Shown here: one piece after another, positions 1-42,422 of the stretch
How the letters are laid out: every line of letters begins with the position of its first letter
Numbering within the stretch: the first letter of the stretch is position 1
Source of the DNA: a virus
Virus record (IMG/VR): IMGVR_UViG_3300036766_001458
Span: 1-43,214 of that record
Length of the DNA: 43,214 bases
Reading direction: 5' to 3' (one strand)
Position numbers and translations under genes: made by a program
The notes under the pieces: generated by a model
What the model was told of the DNA's origin: nothing
The model's input: only the letters and a program-made list of their open reading frames with translations
Database searches by the model: none

Positions 1-1682
1 GGGGTTATATCGTCAGCTATTTTTTCTCCACTTTCTACTTTTGTACTGCTCTTTAATTTAGAAACTATTTCTTGTAACCTTGTATTGACATATGTTCCAG
101 ACTCTAACGCAGACCTTGATGCTTCTCCTAATGTTGGGAAAAAGGCACTAAGACCAAGTTTATCTAACATCAAATCTACAATACCTAACTCTTTCGATAT
201 AGTTCTGTTATTAAATAACCCTATTAAATTTTCAAGTTTTTGTATTACGTCTGCTATGTTTACACTACTCAAAGCTTGTTCTAAGGCAACATCTACTCGG
301 TTCTCTTGCTTTGCGGCTTGTGGAGCGGCAGAAGCTTCATCTTCTGGCTCTTGTACCTCAATTGGGGCTTCTTCTTGTGGTATAGTCGGCATTGGTTCTG
401 CCTGAGCATAAACCGTTATAAGCGCGGTTTCATCAGCAGCTTCTACGTCTATAGGCATGCCAGTACGTAATCTTTTGAAAAATTCATCAAAAGCTTGTTG
501 AGTCTCACTCTCAGGAGGTGTGACTGGTTGAGCTGCTGGCGATGCTACTGCTTCCGTAGGAAGAGCTGCCGGAGTACCTTCTGGCAGGGCTGCTGGAGCT
601 GGGGAGGCTGGTGTAGCTGCTAAATCGGCCAATAAGTCAGGAGCTTCTGCTATTTTATAGAAAAACGCCGATGCTTTTTTCTTACCGTTTGAATTAAGAA
701 AATTAGCAGCTCTATAAATATAATCCTCAAATAAAGATGACTTAATAGTTATTTTGTTAGATGTCTGAACTTTACGCTTCAAATCTTGTAAAAGCTGAAG
801 CATAAACTCTTGGTCATCACCGGCAAAAAACTGACCCTCAAGAGACGCTAATAATTTTTCGGCAGAATTTAAACGACTAATAATTCTAGATCTTTGAGTT
901 TCAATTTTGTCTCTAACTTCATTTTGGTCTGGTTTTTTAGGAATTTCGGGTTGTGGATTTAATTCTTCTTTTACTTCTTCTTTAAGAGCATCTTTACGAG
1001 GGCTGGGTAGCTGAGATTTAATGTTTGTATAATCAATAGGAGATTGAAGCCAAGAATCTTCTGACCAATCCGCAGCGGCAGTTTTGTATTTATCCGCCAT
1101 GCCTTCTTGATAGAATCTGAGCCAATGTTTGTAATCTATTTGTTCCATTTTATCCCAATTTGCAGTGATGACATTAAAGGCCTTATTAGAATCCTCTCCA
1201 GATCTTACCCTTGTATATATGTCTCCCGTTGCCTGCATCCATTTAGATATATCATAAGGCTGATATATTTGTTGTATCCCGGTACCAATTGGATACGCTA
1301 ATTTCATTGGGGTTTGCTGCGGTCTAACCTTCATACCTAACTTACTGGCGGCTACAGCAACGGCTTTAAAGAAATTCAATAAATTATCTATTGGATACTT
1401 GTCTTGATTTGAATATATTTCTGCGTATAAATCTGGCAGCAAATCCATACGCATTCCACCAGGCACAACAACTTCATGCAATATATCCGGGGCCAAATGC
1501 ATAATATGATAAAAAACTCTTTGTTCGTCGGCAGAGTTAATATTCTGCTGAGACATAATTTGAGCATGCTCTACATATTCTTCTTGCAAATGCTTGGGTA
1601 AACTTAAAAAATTAGGCCTTGATAATTGTCTATAAAAATAATTATTAATTTCGCCGGCTTGAAACAATTCTTCTAAATTCAT
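1..1682 (-). CDS. Large helical protein of unknown function, probable virion or packaging related (C-terminus off the left edge)
   Basis: The frame is open from the ATG at 1682 to the window edge, giving 560 complete codons. Its ATG overlaps the stop of the upstream gene in an ATGA junction, so the two are probably translationally coupled. The first ~210 residues are mixed helical with many aromatic residues. A Pro/Lys/Glu-rich hinge follows, then a helical segment, then an Ala/Pro-rich flexible linker at about residues 340-430, then another helical region at the edge. No ATPase, protease or nuclease motif is visible. The linker-and-helix architecture and the large unknown neighbours suggest a phage structural or accessory virion protein. 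That is inference; the coding call itself is firm. Confidence 0.8.
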   Translation of the reverse strand, partial: MNLEELFQAGEINNYFYRQLSRPNFLSLPKHLQEEYVEHAQIMSQQNINSADEQRVFYHIMHLAPDILHEVVVPGGMRMDLLPDLYAEIYSNQDKYPIDNLLNFFKAVAVAASKLGMKVRPQQTPMKLAYPIGTGIQQIYQPYDISKWMQATGDIYTRVRSGEDSNKAFNVITANWDKMEQIDYKHWLRFYQEGMADKYKTAAADWSEDSWLQSPIDYTNIKSQLPSPRKDALKEEVKEELNPQPEIPKKPDQNEVRDKIETQRSRIISRLNSAEKLLASLEGQFFAGDDQEFMLQLLQDLKRKVQTSNKITIKSSLFEDYIYRAANFLNSNGKKKASAFFYKIAEAPDLLADLAATPASPAPAALPEGTPAALPTEAVASPAAQPVTPPESETQQAFDEFFKRLRTGMPIDVEAADETALITVYAQAEPMPTIPQEEAPIEVQEPEDEASAAPQAAKQENRVDVALEQALSSVNIADVIQKLENLIGLFNNRTISKELGIVDLMLDKLGLSAFFPTLGEASRSALESGTYVNTRLQEIVSKLKSSTKVESGEKIADDIT

Positions 1683-2446
1683 GTTTCTACCTCAAAACTA
1701 TAATCATCACTTTCAATTGGCTCAAACAAGGCAATTGGAACAATATTATCAACAGCCTCTCCCCTAGCTTCAATAGTCTTATATTTAGTAACCGGCATGT
1801 CAGGGCTTAATTTACTAAGTTTAGCTGTTAGTAACTCCATAAACCTTGAAGAAACATCTGGGCTAAGTTCTAATAAAAGTTCTCTAATGGTATCCTGAAT
1901 CAATACCGAGTTCTGCTCAACCATACTTATGCTAATATTGTGTTCTATTAATGTATCAGGGCGCTCATTAATTACTTTATCAGCCGTAGATAACAAAGCG
2001 GTTAATGCGTCAAAGTATTTCAAAAGCACATAGTCACCTTTAAAATTACCCGGGTTTTCCTGAATCTTATCGAATACTTGCTCGGCTCTAGCTTCAAGCC
2101 GGACGATAAGATCAGAAATTCTCTTTTTTAAATCAATTTCTCCATCGGCAATATCAGCAATACGCTCTTTCCAAGCTTTATTGTTTAATAGAGATTCGTA
2201 TACAATTTTATCAGTCTTGTTTGACTTCTCATCCTCAACGACTTTATTTAGAAATTTATACTGATCGAAATATTTATCAATAAACTCTTGCAATAATGCA
2301 GCACCAACTCTTAAATGGGCTTCTTCTTTTTTATTGAATTTAAGCTTTAGATATTGAGCTACATCCTTTGGAGTTTCGCCATTAACCAATTTTGATATGA
2401 TTTTATCGCGCTCTACATGTTCGAGTATTTTTTTAAAGTCTGGCAT
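1679..2446 (-). CDS. Helical protein, possible small terminase subunit
   Basis: This 255-residue protein is almost entirely alpha-helical by composition. The N-terminus (about residues 15-60, containing NGETPKDVAQYL) reads like a helix-turn-helix of the kind found in phage small terminases. It is followed by a long charged helical region around RISDLIVRLEARAEQVFDKI and a more hydrophobic C-terminal third. That outline would fit an oligomerising small terminase that recognises phage DNA and feeds the large subunit. No large terminase with a Walker A motif is seen beside it, so the function is a tentative guess. It overlaps the next gene by 4 bases and follows the 395-residue gene closely. Confidence 0.7.
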   Translation of the reverse strand: MPDFKKILEHVERDKIISKLVNGETPKDVAQYLKLKFNKKEEAHLRVGAALLQEFIDKYFDQYKFLNKVVEDEKSNKTDKIVYESLLNNKAWKERIADIADGEIDLKKRISDLIVRLEARAEQVFDKIQENPGNFKGDYVLLKYFDALTALLSTADKVINERPDTLIEHNISISMVEQNSVLIQDTIRELLLELSPDVSSRFMELLTAKLSKLSPDMPVTKYKTIEARGEAVDNIVPIALFEPIESDDYSFEVET

Positions 2447-2456
2447 GTCATTTTAA

Positions 2457-3644
2457 TTATTTAACCTGATCATCAAAAACAACTTCATAATCAGCGTATG
2501 TATTGCCGTATGATGAGGTAATGTTGTCTTTCGCTTGTTGTTTTTGTTGATCTGTCATTCCTGGGGTAGCTGGCACAATTATTTTCTTGTTCACTTTGTC
2601 TAGCTTGAAATTACTAACCTGAGCTTGTTTATAAGAAGCTACAGCGGCCAAACCTTCAATTTCAGGAAGCTCGTCTTCTCTCCACAAAAGACTTGCTTCA
2701 TCAAAGTACTCGCCAGGGCCAACTGATACTAACCAGCCATATAATTCATTTTCTAAGTCGGTTCCTTCTGCCGGCCAAAAAACAGATTCAGCCCCTTCAA
2801 GATTTCCTTCCGCTATATAATCATCAGCGCTTTGTTTGGTTTCAAAGTAATACGGACCATCAGATCTCATCATTTCTATTGCTGCTAGTTCTTGTGGAGA
2901 TTGAGCCATTTTAACAGATGCATAACGGCTCATTACTGATTCGCGGCTATCAAATACCGTATGCCCTTCTCCTCTTACTCCCCAGTCCTTATTCTGATAC
3001 TCTACTCCGCCGCCAGGAATTTTGTTTCCCTTCACCGTAGTAAAGCCAGCCTCCCAATTATAAATTTTCTTATCTAAAGAACACTGGTAGGTTCTGTCGG
3101 CAATACGAATCACTCCCGCCCCAGGATGATCCGGACAATAACGAGTCATCAAAGGAGCCTCTAATGGTCTGTATTCCTTAACTTGATCTTTAAAAGCTTT
3201 AGCAATTTCGGCCTTTTTAGCCTGTTCATCTAGTTTATCAGCATTGCCATTATATTTTTTCTCAATGGTTTCTGATCGATACTTTGCTCTTAATTTATTT
3301 ATTTCGTCTTCGCTTTTTGCTTGAGATTGAGCCATGGCACTCTTAGGAGCAGATATCGTTATCAAAAGCTCATCCAATAAAGATGCCTTCTTAACAAGGA
3401 TATCATCACCAGTTTCGTCAAGAGACTGAGCTAACCCAGCAATTGTTTCTAATATTTCATTAGTATTGACAGGCTCTTTGCCATCAAGGTCAGAGGCAGC
3501 TTTCTCAAGCGTGTGTGAAGCGGCAGCAATCGTCTCTATTACATAATTAAATAAAGACGGATTATGCTCTGATTCTGCTATAATAGAATCTGCGTTTTCT
3601 TGAAGCTTTTTTGCTAAATCTTTTAATCCATTAGAAACAGTCAT
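2457..3644 (-). CDS. Phage protein of unknown function with an N-terminal helical bundle and a Cys/His-containing centre
   Basis: This is a 395-residue protein. Residues 1 to ~110 form a helical segment. The centre has a possible metal site, YCPDHPG followed about 20 residues later by YQCSLDKK, giving a CxxH...CxxD-like arrangement. A Gly-rich segment and an acidic, aromatic domain follow. It ends with a short basic region and an acidic tail. The start ATG lies just after the stop of the 543-residue gene. The helical N-terminus resembles in style the N-termini of its two neighbours, which suggests a shared virion role. I do not recognise the family. Confidence 0.75.
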   Translation of the reverse strand: MTVSNGLKDLAKKLQENADSIIAESEHNPSLFNYVIETIAAASHTLEKAASDLDGKEPVNTNEILETIAGLAQSLDETGDDILVKKASLLDELLITISAPKSAMAQSQAKSEDEINKLRAKYRSETIEKKYNGNADKLDEQAKKAEIAKAFKDQVKEYRPLEAPLMTRYCPDHPGAGVIRIADRTYQCSLDKKIYNWEAGFTTVKGNKIPGGGVEYQNKDWGVRGEGHTVFDSRESVMSRYASVKMAQSPQELAAIEMMRSDGPYYFETKQSADDYIAEGNLEGAESVFWPAEGTDLENELYGWLVSVGPGEYFDEASLLWREDELPEIEGLAAVASYKQAQVSNFKLDKVNKKIIVPATPGMTDQQKQQAKDNITSSYGNTYADYEVVFDDQVK

Positions 3645-3651
3645 TTAAGCC

Positions 3652-5283
3652 TCACTGAAATATTTTGTAAGCTAGGAAAGTTGCTCCACCCTCATTAGTC
3701 TCTTCAATTCCTTTTCGATAAGCCGGCTGACAATCACCATTCTTATCCTGATATACCTTATGAATTGGCATATTTAAATGACCACAAAGTGCATGTTTAC
3801 TCGAAGAACTCTTTACAATCATTGAACATCCACGTTGCTCACTAGCCACTTTCTTTAGCGTCTCAGGGCTAAAGCTTTCCATTAACATAGCCAACGCTTG
3901 CTTCTGCGCTTGAGGATCTACTTCGCCAAGCACATCAATCGCATCTTCAGCTTTGGCATAGTTCCTTTCTCCAATAGCAGCACGAACCATAGCCATAAGC
4001 TCACTCGGCTTCATTCCATATGACGGTGAAGCTTGAACAAGGGCTTTCTTATCCAGCTCATTTTCGCTTAATAGTCTAGAAATTCCAATCTTAGAGAAAT
4101 CAGCCATTGAACCGGAAGCAATTGCAATCGTTGGGGGCATTACAAACCCGCCCTTAACTTTAACCGGAACCTTAAATCCAGCAGAACGATCTATTGATAC
4201 TGCGTAGTTAATAACATCTTTTTGTACATCAGATACTGCAATTTGAGCGCCTCTATATCCAAATGAACTAAGATTACGAGAAAGCATATTAATTCCAGCA
4301 TTTACAACTCGCTCTCCAAAAACATGATTTGCCATTCCTTTTGCAGAATTTAATCGTTCAGCAAAACGAACATGCTCTTCAGTTTGTGGCATTATCTCAT
4401 CGGCAATTGGCTCTCTAGGAGAATCAACTTCCTGATAAAGAATTCCGTTGGCAGCGAAAGCCGGTGTTTCTTTATTCGCTCTAATTTTGATAGCAGCAAG
4501 CTCTACGTCCCCTATAACCTCTACCGGGCCATTCTTAACGGTAGATAGAACCTCTAGAAGCTTATCTCCATCAACTTTGAAAGACTTGCCAGCAGTAGAA
4601 GTGATATGCCTCTGTAGCTTATCAGTTTCAAGCTCAGTAAAACCACCTTGAGTTAAGAATAGACCAGGAAGCAACGCATGCCCTTCCTTTATTTCTACTG
4701 GTACTAATACATGACTTGGCCCTTTTGGAGTCTCGTATGTAGCTTGGCAGATTATAATATCTTGTTGTCCGGCAAATACATTAATTTTCTTCGGAGCTAA
4801 CCCAAGACCAGTAAGTTCTCTTAAACATGATTTCTCTGCTTTAAGAGCGATTTCATTAGAATAAAGTTTAGATTCTCTTGATCCGTCTAATGCCGCAGCC
4901 AAAGCGTTTGATAAAATAGGATCTGCAACTCTTAGATAATCCTGTTCCAAATTAGTATTTTCATACTCAGAACGCTGCATCATCTTCGGACCACTAACCG
5001 AATCGCGACCAAGCTCTTCGGCAAAAAGATCAGCAAGTTTTGTGTTTGTAGTATGGAGCTTATCATACAAACCATTCAATTCTGCACGAGAAATGAAAGT
5101 TTGAGTGCTAGCCATCTTTTTAAGGACGTTAGACATTGTTACCAAGGCTACGTCATGAGGATATTCTTGCGCCGCTTTTGAAGCCCTTACAGCTAAAACT
5201 GGCACTGCAAATTTCTCATTTACATGAATAACTTTTGCGGCCTTTTGTAATACTTCAGCAATGTTTCTGCTATCTAAAGTCAT
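3652..5283 (-). CDS. 543-residue phage protein of unknown function, probable virion associated
   Basis: The product starts with a ~100-residue helical domain (motif ISRAELNGLYDKLHTTN near residue 65). A long mixed alpha/beta region follows, rich in Val, Ile and Gly, containing short beta-like stretches such as SHVLVPVEIKEGHALLPG. A Cys-containing C-terminal tail near residues 480-515 (CSMIVKS, ALCGHLN, GDCQPAYRK) could hold a metal. No enzyme signature is visible. It is tightly packed between the 163- and 395-residue genes, with gaps of 3 and 7 bases. The block of large unknown proteins without enzyme motifs is typical of phage structural regions; that assignment is inference. Confidence 0.75.
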   Translation of the reverse strand: MTLDSRNIAEVLQKAAKVIHVNEKFAVPVLAVRASKAAQEYPHDVALVTMSNVLKKMASTQTFISRAELNGLYDKLHTTNTKLADLFAEELGRDSVSGPKMMQRSEYENTNLEQDYLRVADPILSNALAAALDGSRESKLYSNEIALKAEKSCLRELTGLGLAPKKINVFAGQQDIIICQATYETPKGPSHVLVPVEIKEGHALLPGLFLTQGGFTELETDKLQRHITSTAGKSFKVDGDKLLEVLSTVKNGPVEVIGDVELAAIKIRANKETPAFAANGILYQEVDSPREPIADEIMPQTEEHVRFAERLNSAKGMANHVFGERVVNAGINMLSRNLSSFGYRGAQIAVSDVQKDVINYAVSIDRSAGFKVPVKVKGGFVMPPTIAIASGSMADFSKIGISRLLSENELDKKALVQASPSYGMKPSELMAMVRAAIGERNYAKAEDAIDVLGEVDPQAQKQALAMLMESFSPETLKKVASEQRGCSMIVKSSSSKHALCGHLNMPIHKVYQDKNGDCQPAYRKGIEETNEGGATFLAYKIFQ

Positions 5284-5286
5284 TAA

Positions 5287-5778
5287 TTATCCTTTTAATT
5301 CTGGATATTTAGAGTAAAGTTCGCTTCTATTTTGTACACTTAATGAAGATAACATTGAGGATACAAAACTTTTATCTGACGCTAATTTATTTGGTAGCGA
5401 ACGACTAACCAAAGCATTATCTTCTTTAGGAATTCCCATTTGTTCTACGGCAATCTTAGTAATAGGGTCTCCTTTATAGAACACATTGACGTTGCCGGTT
5501 TTATCAGGAATAGCTGCCCAAGATGCCTTTACAGTAATCTCTTTATTACTGTCATCTTCGTACATTGCAACTAATACCTTATCACCGTTCTCTTCTCTTA
5601 TAATCCATAATTTGTCAAGATCTTCTGAGTCGGTAAAACGAACAACGTCAAAAGCTACCTTTTCAATTCGGCTTTTAACGTCTGCTAATCTGTAAAATTT
5701 CTTTTGATTAACGGTCTGATCTAACCCTACATAATCAGAATCGATAAATCCGTTAGGAAGTTTTGTTTTTGAATCCAT
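5287..5778 (-). CDS. Conserved-looking phage protein of unknown function
   Basis: A 163-residue protein with a GGAG ribosome-binding site six bases before the ATG at 5778. It alternates charged and hydrophobic beta-like segments (DKLWIIREENGDKVLVAMYE, then VNVFYKGDPITKIAV) and ends in a helical, Ser-rich tail. It precedes the 543-residue gene by three bases, so both are probably made from the same message. No domain is recognised. Confidence 0.7.
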   Translation of the reverse strand: MDSKTKLPNGFIDSDYVGLDQTVNQKKFYRLADVKSRIEKVAFDVVRFTDSEDLDKLWIIREENGDKVLVAMYEDDSNKEITVKASWAAIPDKTGNVNVFYKGDPITKIAVEQMGIPKEDNALVSRSLPNKLASDKSFVSSMLSSLSVQNRSELYSKYPELKG

Positions 5779-5829
5779 ATTTTTACTCCAGAGATTAATT
5801 CAAGAAGATACAAAACTATGCCTATTCTT

Positions 5830-6153
5830 TTAAATCGAATACTTATCAGCCATTACTTTAGGGTTTATTACGCCAATCTCTGCTCGGTAAATCATGTCTG
5901 ATTTCATCCTTTGATACATACCTTGCTCATATCGCCTAATACCCCCACTACCTTCCCAACCATACTCATCAATCCTACGCTGAGCTTCTAACACATCAAA
6001 TCTAAACCTATAATCTCTCTCAAATGCCAATGAAACAAAATATGGAGTAAATATATGGGCGTACTGATCGAATATGCCGCCGCCCTCCCACGCTCTGTCC
6101 CAACCTTTATAATAAAAATATTCGTTCGTATATCTTTGAATTTCCGATATCAT
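5830..6153 (-). CDS. C-terminal part of an apparently frameshifted gene, unknown function
   Basis: From the first ATG this reads as 107 residues, rich in aromatic residues (YFYYKGWDRAWEGGG, FDQYAHIFTPYFVSLAFERD). The same frame stays open and protein-like upstream to about 6252 (for example GIVRVCKDFICEC and FTPLLERR) but has no usable start there. The ATG at 6296, coupled to the GIY-YIG gene by ATGA, lies in another frame and stops at 6210. A -1 shift between 6252 and 6210 would join them into one protein of about 150 residues. Either the gene carries a real or sequencing frameshift, or translation starts at the internal ATG at 6153. The family is unknown. Confidence 0.55.
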   Translation of the reverse strand: MISEIQRYTNEYFYYKGWDRAWEGGGIFDQYAHIFTPYFVSLAFERDYRFRFDVLEAQRRIDEYGWEGSGGIRRYEQGMYQRMKSDMIYRAEIGVINPKVMADKYSI

Positions 6154-6209
6154 GCGTCTTTCAAGTAGAGGGGTAAAGCACTCGCAGATAAAATCTTTAC
6201 AAACTCTAA

Positions 6210-6296
6210 CTATACCATCCGTAAATATTTCATTTTCAGGCTTAGGATTTGTTCATAAATTTTAATATTTATTGGGTTTAGTATATCTATTGTCAT
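6210..6296 (-). other. Orphan N-terminal reading frame upstream of the frameshift
   Basis: An ATG at 6296 overlaps the TGA of the GIY-YIG gene (ATGA) and opens a 28-codon frame, MTIDILNPINIKIYE..., that ends at TAG 6212-6210. The downstream protein-coding frame is offset by -1 and is open from 6252. Nothing else explains this start, so I read it as the true 5' end of the gene continued at 6153. No strong slippery heptamer is visible in the 6252-6210 overlap. Confidence 0.45.
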
Positions 6297-7300
6297 TTTA
6301 TGCTTTTTTGTACCTTATTACTATATTTATCTTCCATAGCGCCTTTAACTGGCACATAATTTTCATCAATCCAAGTTCTATTTTTAAGTATTAACATAGC
6401 AGATACTCGTCCCATATTATATTTCTCTCCAAGCTTCGTATAACTAATAGACGGATCTGTATCACTCTCTGCTCTGAGCGCCTTAATTTCTTCCCATGTG
6501 TGTTTGCACTGAGAATTACGCTCTCCAGATGGTATTTTGTTTATTTCTTTTATTTTTTCGGCCTGAGAGCAATCATAATTAGGATCAATCCAAATAGTAT
6601 TATCAATTATAGAGAGAATATTTGCCGAATTATATTTTTCAGACAGTTCACCTATTGATGTATTTCCGCCTGCATATTCCTCTCTAATGGCTCTAACTTG
6701 TTCCCATGTAAGTTTAGCAGTTGAGCTGTTTTCACCGCTTCTAACAAGCGACATATTCTTTTTATGCTCTTCTGAAAATTTAATACCAGTCCTACCAGTA
6801 GATATGGCCTCACAATGTTCGGCTGATAATGGCCTACCCTTTCTGACCGCTGACATTTTGGCCTTGCATTGTTCAGTAAGTTTTTTGCCAGTATGCGCTA
6901 AGGATAATTTTTTCTTATGCTCATCTGTGAGAATTTTGCCAGTATTTGCTATTCTAAGCTTTTCCTTTGTTTCCTCTGTATGTTTACCTCTGCTGCCAGG
7001 CTCTCTAGTATTATACCCCTTCTCTCTATTCATTGAATCATAAAAGTTTACATAGTAAATTTCCCAATATGTTAAATCATCTTCGTCTGTACATTCTCCT
7101 TTTATAATTTCAAACGTAAAATTTTCTGAGCCATATTTTTTTATCGCCCGCCCAAAATAATAAAGTTCATCTGTGCTTTTACATTTAGCTTTTGATATGT
7201 GTTTGTCCCATCTGTCCTCTGGGACATTTTCAGTAGTTTGCCCAACATATACCTTTCCATTAATTTTGTTTGTTATTAGATAAATAACGCCATACCCCAT
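6293..7300 (-). CDS. GIY-YIG homing endonuclease with NUMOD-type repeats
   Basis: A 335-residue site-specific endonuclease of the GIY-YIG family, which makes breaks that mobilise its own gene. The N-terminal catalytic domain shows the GVIY motif (residues 4-7), YVG (18-20), the likely catalytic Arg30 and a Glu in YWEIYYVNFYD. Residues ~100-190 hold repeated HTEETKEKLR / SEEHKKNMS type segments, the NUMOD3 DNA-binding repeats. The C-terminal half has two repeats beginning LTWEQVRAIREEY and HTWEEIKALRAES, which resemble helix-turn-helix modules. It sits between two genes without intron-like flanks, so it looks free-standing. Its stop overlaps the start of the frameshifted gene. Confidence 0.92.
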   Translation of the reverse strand: MGYGVIYLITNKINGKVYVGQTTENVPEDRWDKHISKAKCKSTDELYYFGRAIKKYGSENFTFEIIKGECTDEDDLTYWEIYYVNFYDSMNREKGYNTREPGSRGKHTEETKEKLRIANTGKILTDEHKKKLSLAHTGKKLTEQCKAKMSAVRKGRPLSAEHCEAISTGRTGIKFSEEHKKNMSLVRSGENSSTAKLTWEQVRAIREEYAGGNTSIGELSEKYNSANILSIIDNTIWIDPNYDCSQAEKIKEINKIPSGERNSQCKHTWEEIKALRAESDTDPSISYTKLGEKYNMGRVSAMLILKNRTWIDENYVPVKGAMEDKYSNKVQKSIK

Positions 7301-7309
7301 ATATTTCCT

Positions 7310-8182
7310 TTAAAATATTCCTTCTTCCTCTTGCAACTCATATATTCTGGCAACTATCGCTATTATACGCTCATCCTTTTCTGCTAATTTACGAAGTTTT
7401 TTGCGCGCTCCCCCATAAATTTTGCGACCATTTCTGTAGTCACAATTATGCGCAACCAAACTATCAACTATAAAATTATGATTGTCTTTTACCTCAATAT
7501 CATAAACCTCCTTCGCCACTAATACAACTTCATTTTTTTCAACTGCCACAAAATCTCCACTTATTGCCCCAGTTGTTGTTTTAATATAATTTTCACTATT
7601 TAATTCGTGGGCTGCCAACCACCCCGTATTTGTTAGAAATTTATGATCAGAAGTGCATTCTATAGTACTATTTCCACAAGTAATTTTTATCACTTCTTTT
7701 TTTCCACGATTCCAAGCATATGTTATTTCTTTATATTCAAATTGTTCAGTTTTTTCATTGTATGTTTTTACTAGTGGTAATTTTTCTTTAGCCGCCCATA
7801 TATCATAAAGCTTCCCAATTTTAATTTGGCCTATTTCTGTATCTATATTTTGACTGTAAATTATGCAATTACCGTTTATGGATTTTGTAATTGACGATTG
7901 ATTAACTCCCAACTGTTTAGCAATCTCTATTTGAGTAAACCCTTGAGAATACAAATTAATCACTTCTTTCTGTCTATCAGTAAGTTCACTATTAACTAAT
8001 CTCCAGAACTCTTTCTTGAGTTGATCTTTTAAATCATGAAGCTCATCATTATATTTAGCCGAAGTGACAGTAGAAGTCATTCCTTCTGCCTCGGCGTGTT
8101 CTGCTAACATTTCAGGAGAGCACGATAGCTCAGCGAAATAATGTTGGTAATGATTGCTACGGTTATTAGTTCTATCAGCCAT
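7310..8182 (-). CDS. Sigma-70 region 4-like DNA-binding protein interrupted by an intein
   Basis: I place the start at ATG 8182 (MADRTNNRS), which has AGGAG four bases upstream. An in-frame upstream start at 8212 lies inside the previous gene. Residues 65-105 form a helix-turn-helix of sigma region 4 type (LTDRQKEVINLYSQG, then IAKQLGVNQSSITKSINGN). Residues 106-246 are an intein. The C-extein resumes at Cys247 with DYRNGRKIYGG and a basic helix. Splicing would give a 149-residue protein, probably a transcription regulator or sigma-like factor. The intein sits just after the recognition helix, so the unspliced precursor is likely inactive. Which promoters it controls cannot be told from here. 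Confidence 0.88.
   Translation of the reverse strand: MADRTNNRSNHYQHYFAELSCSPEMLAEHAEAEGMTSTVTSAKYNDELHDLKDQLKKEFWRLVNSELTDRQKEVINLYSQGFTQIEIAKQLGVNQSSITKSINGNCIIYSQNIDTEIGQIKIGKLYDIWAAKEKLPLVKTYNEKTEQFEYKEITYAWNRGKKEVIKITCGNSTIECTSDHKFLTNTGWLAAHELNSENYIKTTTGAISGDFVAVEKNEVVLVAKEVYDIEVKDNHNFIVDSLVAHNCDYRNGRKIYGGARKKLRKLAEKDERIIAIVARIYELQEEEGIF
7445..7867 (-). mobile_element. Mini-intein (about 141 residues, no internal endonuclease)
   Basis: The Hint splicing domain is complete but lacks a homing-endonuclease insert. Block A begins at Cys106 (CIIYSQNIDTEIG). Block B is TIECTSDHKFLT, with the TxxH signature at Thr177-His180. Blocks F/G read YDIEVKDNHNFIV ... VAHN, ending in His245-Asn246. The first C-extein residue is Cys247. 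All residues used in class 1 splicing are present: Cys1, the block B His, His-Asn and Cys+1. A LAGLIDADG endonuclease gene lies immediately upstream in the operon. The reading frame is continuous through both junctions. Confidence 0.93.
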
Positions 8183-9185
8183 TTTTCTCCTGTTGTAACG
8201 CTCCTGGCACACCTCTATTTAAAGTGCGGCCATTAAACAAATTATTTACACCAAACTTCTTAGCAGACAAATACACCGTAGACAAAGAGCACTTATATTT
8301 ATTAGCTATTAGTTGTGGACTTTTTAGTGTCAATATTTCATTTATAAGTATTTCCTTTGTGAATCCTGTTTTTACACTAATTTTTCTTTTATTATACTTG
8401 TAAATATCTGTAATTCCAAATTTTTTAATTAACAAAGAGACACTTGAGTGATTATATCCAAGTTCTTTACCGACAGCTTCACAAGAGCCTAGTCGCTTAT
8501 AAGAATCTATTAATTTTTCCTTTGTTATTTTATCTGGATATGCAACTAAAGACAACAGCTGTAAATGTTGTTTATATTTTCTTTCTAACCAAATTGTAGA
8601 ATTGTCGTATAAAAACGTTGACAGTTTTAAATTTTGTACATTTCCAGAATAATTTAAAGCCCCTTGCCCATTATACATATATGACTTTGGCGTTTTAGAT
8701 ATTTTATTATTAATTAATATATTGCGGTATGTATTTAAAAAACTTATTGTGCCGCAAATTCTAGAGGTCATTTGGTGAGTATAGCCTCCTGTGCTTAAAT
8801 AAAACCCGCCATCACCATCAAAATAACCACGCATAAAATGATTTACTAACTTATGATTAGCTAGCCACTCAGGAAATTTATGAGTGTGTGTTTTTCGCGG
8901 GCCAATACCAAATTTAGCTAAATCATCAAACATTATTTTGGAACATACGCTTATTCTTGAGTGTGTTTTTGTTTTTATTACTGGGTTTTCGGCAAATATT
9001 GATTTTTTAAATTTTTCAACATGAGCGTGATCTTTTACTGATAAATTAATAATTACCTGATATGAGTTACGCTTGCTAATATGAAGGCACCCATCAGCAG
9101 CAATAAACCCGGCCCAATAAAAAGCCTCTTCAGATTCTTGTTTAAAAAAATGATCATCACAATTATATTTTCTGTACCCGGTCAT
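8175..9185 (-). CDS. LAGLIDADG homing endonuclease with C-terminal helix-turn-helix repeats
   Basis: A 336-residue protein with two LAGLIDADG helices, AGFIAADG at residues 25-32 and RGYFDGDG at 119-126. The Asp in each (31 and 125) is the expected metal ligand, so it should be catalytic as a monomer. The C-terminal ~110 residues carry helix-turn-helix segments (GSCEAVGKELGYNHSSVS, then SPQLIANKYKCSLSTVY). The start has TAGGAG overlapping the primase stop. Its end overlaps the next gene by 8 bases. The sequences at its two ends, AGGAGAAAATG at 9193 and AGGAGAAAAATG at 8191, are near-identical. That suggests insertion at the ribosome-binding site of the intein-bearing gene. Confidence 0.93.
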   Translation of the reverse strand: MTGYRKYNCDDHFFKQESEEAFYWAGFIAADGCLHISKRNSYQVIINLSVKDHAHVEKFKKSIFAENPVIKTKTHSRISVCSKIMFDDLAKFGIGPRKTHTHKFPEWLANHKLVNHFMRGYFDGDGGFYLSTGGYTHQMTSRICGTISFLNTYRNILINNKISKTPKSYMYNGQGALNYSGNVQNLKLSTFLYDNSTIWLERKYKQHLQLLSLVAYPDKITKEKLIDSYKRLGSCEAVGKELGYNHSSVSLLIKKFGITDIYKYNKRKISVKTGFTKEILINEILTLKSPQLIANKYKCSLSTVYLSAKKFGVNNLFNGRTLNRGVPGALQQEKNG

Positions 9186-10958: not shown

Positions 10959-11951
10959 TTATTTCTTTTTATGTCTTGTCCTTCTGGCTCCGTCTAATAC
11001 ATTTTGTTTGGCACTTAACGGTCTTAAATTAGATAGCGCCCAGGCTTTCTGAAAATTACTATTAGGATCATGTGACATTTCAGTATACGGAAGATCTGAT
11101 TGTGGTATTATATGATCTATCTGCCACGTCCAAGTAGATGAATCGTTATCATCCCAGGTTTTAGCATTATACACACCTTGATTATCATCAATCATCCACC
11201 ATTCGTATTTAGAAATTAAATATTCTTTTATTGATTTTAAATTCAAATATTCTGTAATAGATGATTTGCTTTTAGATCCTCCGTTTTCTTTTAAAGATAT
11301 ATTAATTGTGCGACTTATATTTTTCCTAAGCCTATAGTTGGCGTCATTTTTCCTACGATCTCTATCTCTTGTTCTAATTTTTTCTTTACTACTTTCTTTG
11401 CTTTTATATTTTTTATCATATTGTTTTTGACACTGCCTTTTGCGCTCTATATTTTCTTCATAATATTTCTTGCGTTTTTTAGATATCTCTTCTTTGTTTG
11501 CTTCATAATAATTATTGTGTTTCTCTCTAATTTTGTCTTTGTTGGTTTCGTAATAATTTTTTTGCAAATTATTTATTTCTTCTTTTTTGTCTTTATAGCG
11601 TTCTGCATGATATTCTCTAATTTTTTCTTTATTATTTTCGCGGTAAGCCTTTCTTTGTTCCGCAATGCTTTTTTTATTTTTGCCTTCATACTCTTTGTGC
11701 TTTTTTGTTATTTCTTCTTTATTGTTTTTATAACGCTCCGCGTGATATTTTTTATTTTTTTCTTTATTATTTTCACGATATAATTTACTACTAATTTTCT
11801 TTTTGTTTTTTATACAATTTTTATCATTATACCAACTGCTAATGTCATTACGCCAAACAAAGTTATCTTTATTTAATTCTTTTGTCTCTGTGCATGGCCC
11901 TGAGCATTTTTTAAATTCAATGCCATTTACAATTATTATGTTTTTACTCAT
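10959..11951 (-). CDS. HNH homing endonuclease with long Lys/Glu repeat linker (copy 1)
   Basis: I choose ATG 11951 (MSKNIIIVN) because AGGTGG lies four bases upstream; an in-frame TTG at 11966 has no such site. The N-terminus has a Cys-containing treble-clef-like segment (KKCSGPCTE ... NWRND-like). About 180 residues of repeated YRENNKEKI / ERYKNNKEEI units follow, forming a charged helical arm. The C-terminal HNH nuclease has WQIDHIIPQSDLPY and NLRPLSAKQN. It is paralogous to the genes at 14224-15018 and 15528-16187 and has the longest repeat arm. It lies right behind the terminator of the single-strand-binding gene, so it may be expressed at a low level. Confidence 0.9.
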   Translation of the reverse strand: MSKNIIIVNGIEFKKCSGPCTETKELNKDNFVWRNDISSWYNDKNCIKNKKKISSKLYRENNKEKNKKYHAERYKNNKEEITKKHKEYEGKNKKSIAEQRKAYRENNKEKIREYHAERYKDKKEEINNLQKNYYETNKDKIREKHNNYYEANKEEISKKRKKYYEENIERKRQCQKQYDKKYKSKESSKEKIRTRDRDRRKNDANYRLRKNISRTINISLKENGGSKSKSSITEYLNLKSIKEYLISKYEWWMIDDNQGVYNAKTWDDNDSSTWTWQIDHIIPQSDLPYTEMSHDPNSNFQKAWALSNLRPLSAKQNVLDGARRTRHKKK

Positions 11952-11961
11952 TAACCACCTA

Positions 11962-11995
11962 AACAAAAAGGGCGGCCCGTTTAAGACCGCCCTTT
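11962..11995 (-). terminator. Rho-independent terminator behind the SSB-like gene
   Basis: Read on the minus strand, AAAGGGCGG (11995-11987) pairs perfectly with CCGCCCTTT (11975-11967) around an 11-base loop. The hairpin runs into a T-rich tract, TTTTTGTTT. It starts about 20 bases after the stop of the 234-residue gene. It is by far the most GC-rich hairpin in this AT-rich window, so it probably ends a highly expressed transcript. Confidence 0.88.
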
Positions 11996-14223: not shown

Positions 14224-15018
14224 TTATTTTCTTGCGCCTTCTGAGATATTTTTAACAGCCTCTAGTGGTCTAAGGTTTTCTAAAGCCCAACATTTTTGAA
14301 AATTACTATTTGGATCAAATGACATTTCTTTGTATGGCAATTGAGATTGGGATATAATATGATCTATATGCCACTTCTTTTCTCCGCCTCGTTTATATTT
14401 ACCATGATTATCCCAATTCATCCACGGCTCAAAAAGAAATTCTAAATGTTGCTTTAACTCAATAATTGAATATGATAAATATTCCATTATAGATTGCCCG
14501 TTTTTTGAGCCGCCGTTATCTTTTAATTGTGCTAAAATAACAGTACTAACATTACGTCTAATCCTAAACTCAGGATCTTTTATCCATTTTTCTTTTATTT
14601 TTGAATTTCCTTTTTCAATCATATGTTTTTTATGATTCTCAGCTATTCTAGTTTTATTATTTTCTCTATATTTTTTTGTAGCTTTTTTATTTGACTCAGC
14701 CACCTTTATGTAATTATTTTCTGACCATAGTTTATGTGAGCGCGCTATTTTTTCTTTATTGTTTTCTCTATATTTTTTATTTGATTTTTTCCGAGATGCA
14801 GCTATTTTTTCTTTATTGTTTTCTCTATATTTCTTATTTGCTTTTTTATTTATAGATGCTGCTTTTTCCGGATTTTCTTTTTTGTAAATTTTGGCTTTTA
14901 TAGCCTGGCACGCACCACACAAATAATAACTCGTTTTCCTTAAACCATTTGTCCAGTTAACGCCAATAATTAACTCATCACCACATTTATTACAGTTTCT
15001 TGCTTTATCAGACACCAT
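14224..15018 (-). CDS. HNH homing endonuclease with tandem repeat linker (copy 2)
   Basis: A 264-residue paralogue of the genes at 10959 and 15528. The N-terminus has a zinc-ribbon pair of CxxC motifs (CNKCGDE, CGACQ). The middle is made of 19-residue units beginning KKYRENNKEKIAAS. The C-terminus is the HNH nuclease, WHIDHIISQSQLPY and ALENLRPLEAVKN. It starts inside the last codons of the 158-residue gene (11-base overlap) and ends just before the RecA gene, leaving both intact. That position is typical of a free-standing homing gene between essential genes. Confidence 0.9.
   Translation of the reverse strand: MVSDKARNCNKCGDELIIGVNWTNGLRKTSYYLCGACQAIKAKIYKKENPEKAASINKKANKKYRENNKEKIAASRKKSNKKYRENNKEKIARSHKLWSENNYIKVAESNKKATKKYRENNKTRIAENHKKHMIEKGNSKIKEKWIKDPEFRIRRNVSTVILAQLKDNGGSKNGQSIMEYLSYSIIELKQHLEFLFEPWMNWDNHGKYKRGGEKKWHIDHIISQSQLPYKEMSFDPNSNFQKCWALENLRPLEAVKNISEGARK
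14744..14857 (-). repeat. 57-base tandem repeat inside the HNH linker
   Basis: Two adjacent 57-base units, 14744-14800 and 14801-14857, differ at only about two positions over their first ~47 bases. They then diverge at the end of each unit. Each encodes one 19-residue KKYRENNKEKI unit. More diverged copies flank them. The high similarity points to recent unequal duplication of the linker. Confidence 0.85.
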
Positions 15019-15527: not shown

Positions 15528-16187
15528 TTAAATTTTACAACCCTTTGATATATTTTGAGCGGCATCTAACGGCCTCAAATTTGATAATGCCCAACATTTC
15601 TGAAAATTAGACTCAGGATCATGCGACATCTCTGCATATGGCAGCTGTGATTGTGGCGTAATATGATCTATATGCCACTTTCTACCTTCTCCGCGTCTAT
15701 AAGTTCCGTGATTATCCCAATTCATCCAGGGCTCCCAAAGAGACTCTAAATACAATCTTAATTCCTCTATAGTATATTTTAAATAAAATAATATGGAATC
15801 CCCGTTTTTCCCGGCAATGGTGCGTTTTAACCCTCCCAATATAGCCCTGCTAACATTGCGCCTTAATTTATAATTAGGATCATTTTTTATTTTATTTCTT
15901 CTATACTCGTTTCTGTAATTATCTATTTTATTTTTGTTATTTGCGTAATACGTTTTTACATCATCTATTATTTTTTCTTTATTATTGTTATATCTTAATT
16001 TTTGTTTTTCTGATATTCTGTTTATATTATTTTGTCTATATATTTCATTGCTTAACAAAACGCATTTTTTACATTTCTTTTGTAATTTACTTCGATCATT
16101 TCTCCAATAAAAATTATCTGTATTAGCCTCTTTTTCTAAATAGCAACTTGAACATACAATGGTATTTTTATCGCTATTTGTTTCCAA
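15528..16187 (-). CDS. HNH homing endonuclease (copy 3, short linker)
   Basis: A 219-residue paralogue of the two other HNH genes. It starts at a TTG (16187) with AAGGA four bases upstream, inside the 3' end of the 119-residue gene. A treble-clef-like N-terminus (CSSCYLEKE, WRNDRSKLQKKCKKC) precedes a short charged arm with few repeats (NNNKEKIIDD). The nuclease end has WHIDHITPQSQLPY and ALSNLRPLDAAQN. It is the shortest of the three because the repeat arm is reduced. Both neighbours remain complete. Confidence 0.9.
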   Translation of the reverse strand: METNSDKNTIVCSSCYLEKEANTDNFYWRNDRSKLQKKCKKCVLLSNEIYRQNNINRISEKQKLRYNNNKEKIIDDVKTYYANNKNKIDNYRNEYRRNKIKNDPNYKLRRNVSRAILGGLKRTIAGKNGDSILFYLKYTIEELRLYLESLWEPWMNWDNHGTYRRGEGRKWHIDHITPQSQLPYAEMSHDPESNFQKCWALSNLRPLDAAQNISKGCKI

Positions 16188-32446: not shown

Positions 32447-32716
32447 CTATTTACCGCTGTCATGCGCAGATGACATACAGCCCATTCCAAGATCTACTCC
32501 GCACGGACCATTAGCCGTAATGCAACAGCCCTTCCCTACCCCGCTAGAAGGGCAATAAACGGGGTTACAGCTTCCAGTAGTGGCGGCTGGCGTTGCGCTT
32601 GCGCCTCCGGTAGAAACAGAAATACCGCCTTCATCAGAAGAAGGAAATGCAACATCACTCTCGCTAGCACAGCCTATCAAACAAAGAGCTATAACAACAA
32701 TTCTTTTGTATATCAT
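32447..32716 (-). CDS. Cys-rich lipoprotein
   Basis: An 89-residue protein with a basic start, a hydrophobic stretch and a lipobox, VIALCLIGC, so Cys16 would be lipidated and the protein anchored in a membrane facing the periplasm or outside. The mature part has a Ser/Gly/Ala-rich spacer, then a Cys-dense end: CNPVYCPSSGVGKGCC and CGVDLGMGC. That pattern resembles lipoproteins common in Myxococcota, from memory. Possible roles are superinfection exclusion or envelope change in infected cells. It overlaps the upstream gene by four bases and has AAGGA before the ATG. Confidence 0.78.
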   Translation of the reverse strand: MIYKRIVVIALCLIGCASESDVAFPSSDEGGISVSTGGASATPAATTGSCNPVYCPSSGVGKGCCITANGPCGVDLGMGCMSSAHDSGK

Positions 32717-35247: not shown

Positions 35248-35541
35248 TTAAGCCGCGTGTTGTGTGTTTATAAAATCGCGAAAAGCTTTTCTTAATGGCT
35301 CTATTAAAACAGCTCCGGTGATACGATTTACTTCCTGACCACTCAGTACTAATATAACAGTTGGTACGGACATTATCTTATATTTTTTACATAACTCAGG
35401 CTCATCATCAACATTTACTGAATGAATATGCACATTTGGGAATTCTTCCGCCATTTTTTTTATTGACGGTTCCATTAATTTGCACGGCGAGCACCAATCC
35501 GCGCCAAATTTCAACGCACAATATCCTTTAGAAATATCCAT
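35248..35541 (-). CDS. Thioredoxin
   Basis: I choose ATG 35541 (MDISKG), with GGAG five bases upstream, giving a 97-residue thioredoxin. A longer frame from 35604 would run into the upstream gene. The redox motif is WCSPC (residues 16-20), a Ser variant of the usual WCGPC. The cis-proline segment is MSVPTVIL, followed by VNRITGAV. It probably reduces disulfides, such as those in a ribonucleotide reductase elsewhere in the genome. The adjoining ribbon-helix-helix gene ends 11 bases before it. Confidence 0.93.
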   Translation of the reverse strand: MDISKGYCALKFGADWCSPCKLMEPSIKKMAEEFPNVHIHSVNVDDEPELCKKYKIMSVPTVILVLSGQEVNRITGAVLIEPLRKAFRDFINTQHAA

Positions 35542-35552
35542 TGCCTCTCCGT

Positions 35553-35921
35553 TTAGCTTGATGTGTTGTTGTACGAAATGCCGTTTATAGTCGGGACCGA
35601 ACAATTAGTAACTGTTAAGTCCTTTATCCCCATAACAGATTCCTCGCCAATTGCTATTGAACCGGTGGTAGCGGAACACCACGTTATGCCGGGCCATGGC
35701 TGAATCTGAGGCGCAACATATGGGTTTAGCGGAACCGGGACTGGATAAGGAATAAACTGTAAAGGCTGAGGCTGAGTTTTACACAATTCGTCTCGTAATT
35801 TACTTATAGCCAATTTTAAAATTTCACTATCATTCATGCCCGTTCTAGTTTTAAGCTCTTCTATATATTCTTGCTCAAGTTTGCTCAGATTAAGTGATAT
35901 TTTTTTACGTGCTTTTTTCAT
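35553..35921 (-). CDS. Ribbon-helix-helix-like protein with a Pro-rich linker
   Basis: The likely start is ATG 35921 (MKKARKKISLNL), with GAGG six bases upstream. Residues 1-45 (SLNLSKLEQEYIEELKTR, GMNDSEILKLAISKLRDEL) read as a ribbon-helix-helix DNA-binding domain. A Pro-rich linker (QPQPLQFIPYPVPVPLNPY) follows, then a Ser/Thr/Asn-rich C-terminal part. It may be a transcription repressor or a structural protein with a DNA-binding end. The stop lies 11 bases before thioredoxin. Confidence 0.68.
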   Translation of the reverse strand: MKKARKKISLNLSKLEQEYIEELKTRTGMNDSEILKLAISKLRDELCKTQPQPLQFIPYPVPVPLNPYVAPQIQPWPGITWCSATTGSIAIGEESVMGIKDLTVTNCSVPTINGISYNNTSS

Positions 35922-36117
35922 TTTGTGCCTCAAGCGTCTTAGAAACTAGTTCCATTAATTCTTTTTGGACTTCATTGATAGAAGATATTAATTCTTCGTC
36001 AGTTACTATATTCTTTTTAATTAATAGACGCTCCAAAGAAGTTAGTCGAATTGTTAAGTCCATCACAATTTCGCCTTGTTTTTGCAAATATTCGTCTCTA
36101 TTATTTTCGTTTTCCAT
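35905..36117 (-). CDS. Small coiled-coil protein
   Basis: A 70-residue acidic helical protein with clear heptads (LTIRLTSLERLLIKKNI, ELISSINEVQKELMELVSK). It follows the deformylase gene by three bases and overlaps the ribbon-helix-helix gene by 17. Its partner is unknown. Confidence 0.6.
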   Translation of the reverse strand: MENENNRDEYLQKQGEIVMDLTIRLTSLERLLIKKNIVTDEELISSINEVQKELMELVSKTLEAQNEKST

Positions 36118-36120
36118 TAT

Positions 36121-36636
36121 TTATTCCTTTCCGCAACACTTTTTATATTTTTTCCCGCTTTTACAGGAACACAAATCATTAGGTCTTAATTTATTTTGCT
36201 TTGTTTTAATGGCAACATCTGGCAACAAAATCCCATTAAGATGATCAATTTCATGCTGGATCGCCACGGCAAATAAACCAGTGGCAATAAATCTATTAGG
36301 TTCTACATCATTACCTTCAACATATATCTCATTATAACGAAGTGTTTTTTCAAACATTCCAGGAAAGCTTAAACACCCTTCGTTTTCAAACACATACTGA
36401 TCATACTTTGCCACTATCTTACAATTAACTAAATCAATTTTCAAATGATCGCTTATTCTTATTATGGCTATATTTTTGTGTATTCCGCATTGTGGTGCCG
36501 CCAATCCGATTCCAGGACGCCCTAAACTAGTTTCATGTAATAATTCATTATCAAGCTGTTCTATAATAGAGACAACTTCTCCAGGTAACGCATCCACGCA
36601 TTTAACACGCAGAGATTTTTCGTCTGTAATAATCAC
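36121..36636 (-). CDS. def: Peptide deformylase with C-terminal SEC-C zinc motif
   Basis: A 171-residue metalloenzyme that removes the formyl group from new N-termini. All three motifs are present: GIGLAAPQ (42-49), EGCLS (86-90, metal ligand Cys88) and HEIDH (128-132, ligands His128 and His132, catalytic Glu129). Residues 151-171 add RPNDLCSCKSGKKYKKCC, a SEC-C zinc motif (Cys156, Cys158, Cys167, Cys168) of the kind SecA uses to bind ribosomes and SecB. This tail could hold the enzyme at the tunnel exit. The start overlaps the IF-3 stop by four bases. Confidence 0.95.
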   Translation of the reverse strand: MIITDEKSLRVKCVDALPGEVVSIIEQLDNELLHETSLGRPGIGLAAPQCGIHKNIAIIRISDHLKIDLVNCKIVAKYDQYVFENEGCLSFPGMFEKTLRYNEIYVEGNDVEPNRFIATGLFAVAIQHEIDHLNGILLPDVAIKTKQNKLRPNDLCSCKSGKKYKKCCGKE

Positions 36637-37202
36637 GCCGATTTTGCTTTATCAGAAGAAGATGATCTTTTCTCAATTATTACAATTAAATCTTTTCCGT
36701 TTAATGATGCAGGGGAAACTATTTGTGCCTCAGGAATTAAGCTGAGAAATATTTGCAATGTATTATCCGCAACTTCTTTATGCGATAACTCTCGGCCATG
36801 GAAAACTATACTTATTTTTACTTTATTGCCTTCCTCTAAAAACCCCTGCGCTTGACGTGCTTTGGTTCTTAAATCATTTTCCGCAGTTGATGGGCGGAAT
36901 TTTATCTCTTTTATTTCGATGGCACTCTCACGTTGTTTCTTCTTAGAGAGTTTGTCTTTTTTAGCCTGCTCATATTTGAATTTACTATAATCTAATATTT
37001 TGGCCGTTGGAACTTGTCCTGGCTGAGCTGATATTTGAACAAGATCAAGACCTTTTGATTCTGCTAGCCTTAATGCGTCTTGTAGAGAAATGATGCCATG
37101 ATTAACTTCATCGTCAATACATAATACTTTTGGCGCTCTAATTTGGTGATTTAAAAAATATTTGCTCGAATTATCATCTGAGCGCTTTACGAATGGCTTC
37201 AT
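36633..37202 (-). CDS. infC: Translation initiation factor IF-3
   Basis: This 189-residue protein is full length for bacterial IF-3 (~180). The N-domain has ESKGLDLVQISAQPGQVPTA and AKILDYSKFKYEQ. The linker is Lys-rich. The C-domain shows IEIKEIKFRPSTAENDLRTK, GFLEEGNKVKISIVFHGREL and a Ser-rich end. IF-3 binds the 30S subunit, checks the start codon and keeps subunits apart. A phage copy could favour phage messages or free 30S during infection. It starts with ATG, unlike the AUU of E. coli infC, so the usual autoregulation through the start codon is absent. Confidence 0.96.
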   Translation of the reverse strand: MKPFVKRSDDNSSKYFLNHQIRAPKVLCIDDEVNHGIISLQDALRLAESKGLDLVQISAQPGQVPTAKILDYSKFKYEQAKKDKLSKKKQRESAIEIKEIKFRPSTAENDLRTKARQAQGFLEEGNKVKISIVFHGRELSHKEVADNTLQIFLSLIPEAQIVSPASLNGKDLIVIIEKRSSSSDKAKSA

Positions 37203-41385: not shown

Positions 41386-41790
41386 TTACTCGACAACTTC
41401 TTCATACCCGTCAAAAGAAGAATATCCGTCCGCCATAATAGAGTCACCAATAGCCTTCATCAATATTTCTTGCGCGATATTATTTTTATTTACAGTTAAC
41501 TCAGCCTCTTTTATTAAAGTTTCACACGTAATAACAAACTCATCAAATTGTTCTCTATTATTTTTACCATATCCATATATACCATGAAATGAATTATGAC
41601 ACCTGGCGCAAAGTGTTATTCCGCAGTCCATAGAGTATCTTTCTTCAGGATATGCGTCCCAAGACATTATATGATGACTATGTAATTCTACCCCGCGCCT
41701 GGAACACAATTGACAAGTATAAAAATCGCGCTGTTTAATAGCCTTTGCCCAACGAATAAATTCTAAGTCTTCTTTCCTGTCATATTTCAT
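41386..41790 (-). CDS. HNH endonuclease, small
   Basis: A 134-residue protein with a classic HNH fold: CQLCSRRGVELHSHHI (Cys26, Cys29, His37, His39-His40) and CARCHNSFHGIYG with the last HNH residues. No long arm is present, so it differs from the homing paralogues at 10959-16187. It may be a host-DNA nicking or packaging-related nuclease. It overlaps the metalloprotease-like gene by four bases. Confidence 0.85.
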   Translation of the reverse strand: MKYDRKEDLEFIRWAKAIKQRDFYTCQLCSRRGVELHSHHIMSWDAYPEERYSMDCGITLCARCHNSFHGIYGYGKNNREQFDEFVITCETLIKEAELTVNKNNIAQEILMKAIGDSIMADGYSSFDGYEEVVE

Positions 41791-42422
41791 TTATTTTGAT
41801 TATGTATTTTTTGTTCTTCTGCTAATGCTGGAGTTTCAGCTCCAACAAATCCTTTTTCAGGATCGTAGCTTTTTACATGCCCCGCTTCATGAGCCAAAAC
41901 CGATACTATATTATTAATTATTGCGTCGTCTATATCTTCTTTAGCAGAACCAGCAAGTTCTTTTTCAACTTCAGATTTTATTCTTGGAAAATTAATATGT
42001 ATTACCGTAGGATCTTTTCCTTTTCCGCTTTCCACATGTCCATAGTTTGCCTCAGGACCAGACACAATTTTCCTAACCCCAACAAAATAATTAGGCTGCA
42101 TTTGTTTTAACTTTTGAACGGCTTTATCAATTAAAGTTTCTTGCGGCTCAATTCTAACTTGTGGACTGGCCAATTCAGCGTCCACAGGTTCTTGCTGAGC
42201 GCGTTTGTTTAAAATCTTTATAACTTCTCTGTATTTTTGTAAAGGGTCAGAAAGCGCCGCAGAAACATAAATATAGTCTTCGAAAGTATTACTGTTCAAA
42301 CAAGCATTACATAGAGTTAAATCTCTTTTAAAAGAAGCAATTTTGACAGTATGAAGCTCAGGAGTTAAATATTCCAGTCCGCAAGCCTCACAATTGGCCG
42401 ATTTTGAGTATATTCTTGCCAT
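41787..42422 (-). CDS. HEAGH zinc metalloprotease-like protein with N-terminal zinc ribbon
   Basis: A 211-residue protein. The N-terminus has two CxxC pairs (CEACGLE, CNACLNS) forming a zinc ribbon. The C-terminal end has LAHEAGHVKSYD (His178, Glu179, His182), the HExxH core of zinc peptidases, and GFVGAETPALAEEQK, which could supply the third ligand. It may cleave a host or phage protein. It resembles the metallopeptidase logic of ImmA/IrrE-type proteins but the family is not established. It overlaps the HNH gene by four bases. Confidence 0.75.
   Translation of the reverse strand: MARIYSKSANCEACGLEYLTPELHTVKIASFKRDLTLCNACLNSNTFEDYIYVSAALSDPLQKYREVIKILNKRAQQEPVDAELASPQVRIEPQETLIDKAVQKLKQMQPNYFVGVRKIVSGPEANYGHVESGKGKDPTVIHINFPRIKSEVEKELAGSAKEDIDDAIINNIVSVLAHEAGHVKSYDPEKGFVGAETPALAEEQKIHNQNK

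Follow-up and report, generated by a model that had tools for sequence, protein, structure and literature searches.

Trigger factor and a SEC-C-tailed peptide deformylase, with a dispensable IF3, in a putative lineage of huge phages

Phages that encode translation factors of their own raise the question of which step of host protein synthesis these products serve. The stretch of DNA analysed here (the window), a 43,214-base IMG/VR virus record in which no tRNA genes were found, carries genes for translation initiation factor 3 (IF3), peptide deformylase (PDF), and trigger factor (TF) (Table 1). A sequence-only reading had regarded these three as a single set for taking over the host ribosome. 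Phage IF3, phage PDF, and a translation-interception model for huge phages that includes both are already known, the latter being itself a model (Al-Shayeb et al., 2020, PMC7162821). The lineage described below shares with those phages the two genes, the proposed redirection of host translation, and a very large genome, but it also has TF, whereas the text of that paper mentions neither trigger factor nor any chaperone. TF was likewise not found in three huge metagenomic phage records (LR756501, LR756504, and LR756511), the last of which carries IF3, PDF, and an aminopeptidase. No reports of a phage TF or of a PDF/SEC-C fusion were found in the open-access literature, with most subscription papers lying outside this scope.

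Table 1. Features of the window discussed in the text.
Feature	Position	Strand	Evidence and remarks
infC, translation initiation factor IF-3, 189 aa	36633..37202	-	ATG start; Pfam, PHROG, and PDB matches
infC stop/def start overlap, GTGA, four bases	36633..36636	-	Read from sequence
def, peptide deformylase (PDF) with C-terminal SEC-C tail, 171 aa	36121..36636	-	GTG start
SEC-C metal-binding tail of deformylase, residues 153-171, CxCx8CC	36124..36180	-	Pfam; conserved in relatives
Small ORF directly 3' of def, function not assigned	35905..36117	-	Conserved in 24 related loci
Thioredoxin	35248..35604	-	Pfam PF00085 3e-19; conserved def neighbour, 54 related loci (synteny)
tig, trigger factor (TF), 409 aa	22785..24014	-	ATG start; ribosome-binding, reduced PPIase, and C-terminal domains

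The window, its viral lineage, and the three genes

Proteins encoded in the window include a DnaE-type polymerase, parts of a primase, an SbcC-like subunit, a UvsX-like recombinase, and an RNA ligase, and the window is read as a piece of the genome of an uncultivated huge-phage lineage. Contigs collinear with it measure 321-481 kb, and the order shared among relatives runs IF3, PDF, thioredoxin, primase, SbcD, SbcC, dNMP kinase, exonuclease, TF, and polymerase. In a synteny comparison of 75 loci, which form a partly overlapping set, PDF, TF, and most of the cluster neighbours were present in about 50-65. Phage hallmarks were scarce among the large proteins of a lineage contig of 458,729 bases (G003), but a baseplate protein and rIIA did turn up there; given these two and the size of the collinear contigs, the lineage is read as huge tailed phages.

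Several other genes of the window deserve mention. Positions 41787-42422 encode a protein with an HEAGH motif, a possible metalloprotease without Pfam or PHROGs matches that occurs in three related loci, and positions 32447-32716 a small, cysteine-rich, lipoprotein-like ORF that has no match among the related loci. At 7310-9185, a sigma-factor-like helix-turn-helix protein contains intein-like sequence, and the ORF after it, which overlaps it, resembles a LAGLIDADG homing endonuclease. Three related HNH-like proteins (10959-11966, 14224-15018, and 15528-16187), two of them with YRENNKEK-type repeats, are scattered over the replication cluster and are probably homing endonucleases.

All three translation-related ORFs lie where the sequence-only reading had placed them, full length and with their Pfam domains, catalytic motifs, and GFRxGKxP motif intact. 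That reading did not mention the SEC-C tail of the PDF or the nearby thioredoxin gene. IF3 comprises both domains (IF3_N 1e-22 and IF3_C 1e-23, Pfam) and matches PHROG 9787, translation initiation factor (3e-50), as well as PDB entries of IF-3. Among the 30S-contacting arginines of the E. coli IF3 C-domain (R99, R112, R116, R147, and R168), R99 and R112 are kept in the alignment, R168 is replaced by lysine, and R116 and R147 are not kept. Homologous IF3 proteins, up to about 41% identical, occur in the jumbo phages Atu_ph07, Phosso, CBB, RaK2, and GAP32. The neighbours of the IF3 gene in Atu_ph07, Phosso, CBB, and XaC1 are Clp ATPase or ClpS-like genes instead of PDF, and no TF was found in these four.

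The GTG start of def sits where relatives have ATG. Its product contains the PDF domain (PF01327 at 4e-28, Pfam) with all catalytic motifs kept (GIGLAAPQ, EGCLS, and QHEIDH; metal ligands Cys88, His128, and His132, together with Glu129), and its AF2 model (pLDDT 95) has solved deformylases as best matches, with a Foldseek E-value of 7e-13 to the E. coli enzyme. TF shows the domain order, fold, and GFRxGKxP signature of bacterial trigger factors (Trigger_N 4e-20; Trigger_C 4e-7, 30.7 bits against a cut-off of 22.7), and its model (pLDDT 87.8) matches the full-length trigger factors 1w26, 2vrh, and 3gty. It differs from the bacterial proteins in forming a viral group of its own, in sharing only some 20% of residues with E. 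coli trigger factor when the folds are aligned, and in its weak PPIase-like domain (FKBP_C 2e-4, 21.9 bits against a cut-off of 21.1). The ribosome-binding signature reads GFRAGKAP in the window, with FRA where the E. coli loop has FRK, and GFRxGK is exact in 45 of 52 lineage TFs. A second record (L002) carries a near-identical TF (99%). PHROGs lists the matching family only as 'unknown function'.

Other apparent phage trigger factors were discarded: the sole match from phage collections that was inspected is bacterial, and the remaining ones lack annotation and show 21-28% identity. The TF of 'Acinetobacter phage MD-2021a' adjoins clpP, clpX, and a tonB-dependent receptor, and thus belongs to a bacterial chromosome, and a Vibrio 'phage' IF3 stands in a thrS-infC-rpmI-rplT row near integrases, so that it is probably host flank. 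The phage-labelled records CAKLQH020000005 (L011) and MK672802 (L010) contain such stretches of bacterial chromosome (tig-clpP-clpX; thrS-infC-rpmI-rplT) and would yield false phage trigger factors or IF3s in surveys.

Conserved and dispensable members of the set

Co-occurrence was followed in two samples. The first comprised 50 viral contigs picked mainly by PDF similarity; TF was present in 22 and IF3, above the cut-off, in 19, nearly the same contigs. For the second, viral contigs were searched with a TF alignment, to avoid picking by PDF, and 52 of the 56 loci fell into this TF family. Thirty lineage contigs were new by this route, with PDF in 20 and IF3 in only seven; the ten without PDF are fragments of 12-35 kb or, for one (G085), have TF near the contig end. 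Hence, PDF and TF recur together in contigs reached via either gene, and the co-occurrence in other phages that the sequence-only reading had proposed as a check is borne out. Thirteen lineage contigs measure 318 kb or more. All 13 encode PDF and methionine aminopeptidase, the latter elsewhere in these large genomes than in the 43-kb stretch covered by the window, and 12 encode TF, whereas a full IF3 is found in seven, a C-domain alone in one (G005), and none in five. Near-duplicates (e.g. G101 and G114) are included, so these counts refer to contigs, not species.

The five contigs lacking IF3 are 349-452 kb in size. A filter-free search with a phage-IF3 profile over about 40 kb upstream of PDF yielded nothing there, with a positive control at 281 bits, which speaks against a failure of detection. 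As a single query against viral contigs, the window IF3 retrieved no relatives; these were reached only via PDF and TF. In the IF3 tree, two groups are seen that do not form one group jointly: that of the window holds genes adjoining or near PDF, and in the other, of 17 sequences, IF3 is not adjacent to PDF. All trees are quick trees, and that of IF3 has a few badly placed rows. A truncated gene in G005 (L018, 7726-8001) retains the 92-residue C-terminal domain of IF3, still adjoining the deformylase start, and offers a natural test of whether this domain alone is sufficient.

Thus, PDF, TF, and methionine aminopeptidase are the conserved members, PDF and TF being the conserved pair within the cluster, and IF3 is a replaceable or dispensable one. 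Since the retained factors are those encountered by a chain on its way out of the ribosome, the stable core looks like a kit for nascent-chain maturation, not like an initiation switch. Of the three-gene set as originally proposed, joint presence and intactness hold, but its core is PDF, TF, and aminopeptidase, and tig lies 12 kb downstream of infC/def among replication genes, so that the three do not constitute one operon. The idea of one takeover set built around initiation finds no support, IF3 being absent from five contigs, truncated in one, and split into two tree groups.

In the PDF tree, computed with the tail left out, the lineage PDFs lie on one side of a branch with a support of 92, and 42 of them group at 97. 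The 52 lineage TFs form one group (support 100). In the distant relative G024, TF occupies the same place among the replication genes, but its sequence clusters with those of bacteria and has a long branch, which could reflect replacement or fast change. Close pairs of relatives give dN/dS values of 0.02-0.07 for PDF, IF3, and TF (0.05 for the window TF against L002), denoting purifying selection and therefore genes kept for their products; across the lineage, PDF and TF diverge to about 33-50% identity. With the factors co-occurring in a deep viral lineage and PDF and TF each forming one viral group, the possibility of unrelated recent single-gene captures that do not co-occur, named in the sequence-only reading as a refutation, falls away. 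The co-occurrence nevertheless seems to be largely vertical descent within one lineage, as the whole region is collinear, and is therefore no proof of joint action. Two distant relatives, and no other lineage contigs tested, carry a GroEL-type chaperonin gene upstream of IF3 and PDF, at a distance of 1-3 kb (L036 in G023, 4805-6457; L037 in G024, 2944-4584).

The SEC-C tail of the deformylase

Bacterial PDFs dock on the ribosome through a C-terminal helix. This helix of type 1B enzymes is missing in the window PDF, whose model shows no long helix past residue 141; instead, the protein ends in NDLCSCKSGKKYKKCCGKE, in which Pfam recognizes SEC-C (PF02810; residues 153-170, 25.6 bits, cut-off 20.4). 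Its CxCx8CC motif is shared with the C-terminal domain of SecA, in which CxCx8CC/CH likewise forms the very end of a protein meeting nascent chains; the partner is a translocation ATPase in SecA and a deformylase here. The viral PDFs of Vp16 and S-SSM7 share catalytic motifs and fold with the window PDF and also lack the ribosome-binding helix, but they end early, whereas the window protein runs on into the tail; why viral PDFs are devoid of the ribosome-interacting C-terminal region is described as an open question (PMC5591237).

PDFs of L020, L024, L036, and L043 also score above the Pfam cut-off for SEC-C, and a SEC-C or SEC-C-like tail was read in 19 of the 20 PDFs reached via TF, with a longer loop in three; the lineage PDF L348 is tailless. 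The linker ahead of the motif varies in length and sequence. The tail was absent from all 37 bacterial PDFs and from all 80 viral PDFs of the Phosso type, and two supposed bacterial fusions (L116 and L120) proved tailless on full reading. One search found the tail in 72 of 80 viral PDFs, but this was rejected as a true frequency, because its patterns had included the tail; the Phosso-centred scan gave 0 of 80. Since PDFs of other viral contigs without IF3 or TF carry it too, the tail is not unique to this lineage but marks particular viral groups. No such tail was seen on the aminopeptidase in the frames read. One deformylase gene (L352 in G088, about 1471-3087, plus strand) seems to be interrupted by an intein at the HExDH active-site motif; its frame picks up again as CDHLRGVLL and finishes in a SEC-C tail.

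What the tail does can be approached by analogy to SecA, whose metal-binding domain interacts with 70S ribosomes and whose C-terminal tail cross-links to uL23 (PMC6620043). The simplest reading would be that the tail is a substitute ribosome dock replacing the C-terminal helix. The same SecA domain, however, binds SecB (PMC8076867), and for this reason the dock is rated at about an even chance. Binding of SecB or another protein by the tail, which would steer deformylation to secreted phage proteins, or a mere stabilization of the enzyme, is a real though lesser possibility; the variable linker suits such a role, but the tail-dependent ribosome link reported for SecA speaks against it, as does the lack of SecB in many bacteria that carry this SecA domain (PMC8076867).

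Probable supply of a maturation set to the host ribosome

Two further explanations concern the set as a whole. In an initiation takeover, the phage IF3 would alter which mRNAs start, with PDF and TF as helpers of the same programme. The four-base overlap of infC and def is exactly as the sequence-only reading had described it, and comparable short overlaps recur in L017, L018, L020, L036, and L037, distant members among them; together with the place of IF3 and PDF in the published interception model (PMC7162821), this favours such a programme. It is nevertheless improbable, given the large contigs in which IF3 is missing or truncated while PDF, aminopeptidase, and TF remain, and the 17-member group in which IF3 lies apart from PDF. 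Alternatively, unrelated host genes may have gathered in one old phage genome for separate housekeeping jobs, e.g. a PDF serving as a drug-insensitive spare, or a TF for folding virion proteins away from the ribosome. The spread over 12 kb among replication genes, a co-occurrence that tracks one lineage, and accessory bacterial PDFs that can protect from PDF inhibitors (PMC12690207) would fit, but the persistence of PDF, TF, and aminopeptidase across a deeply diverged lineage, together with strong purifying selection, makes this account rather unlikely.

The explanation that we consider somewhat probable is that a huge phage equips the host ribosome with a set of its own for the maturation of nascent chains. 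Beyond genes that are intact, conserved, and selected, we infer the following course. During phage protein synthesis, the phage proteins would act on host ribosomes translating phage mRNA: PDF would take the formyl group off the nascent chain, the aminopeptidase would clip the first methionine, and TF would shield the emerging chain. Where present, IF3 would add recycling of the 30S subunit and start-site selection, and in the subgroup of the window, coupled translation probably yields it immediately before PDF. PDF might reach the tunnel exit by its SEC-C tail, which would stand in for the bacterial C-terminal helix. The most likely purpose would be supply and independence, with N-terminal processing and folding keeping pace with the burst of phage protein as host expression fails. 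A stronger version, in which the lineage, a widespread one, seizes the exit site of the ribosome rather than initiation by means of the deformylase, aminopeptidase, and TF set, and a SecA-type dock holds PDF there and displaces the host enzyme, is put forward only tentatively.

The identification of TF allows an immediate improvement of phage annotations. For viral PDFs without a ribosome-binding region, the lineage offers one possible, concrete answer as to why, namely a borrowed docking domain. If this is true, the view of phage translation control would shift from initiation to the tunnel exit, the place at which chains are trimmed and folded.
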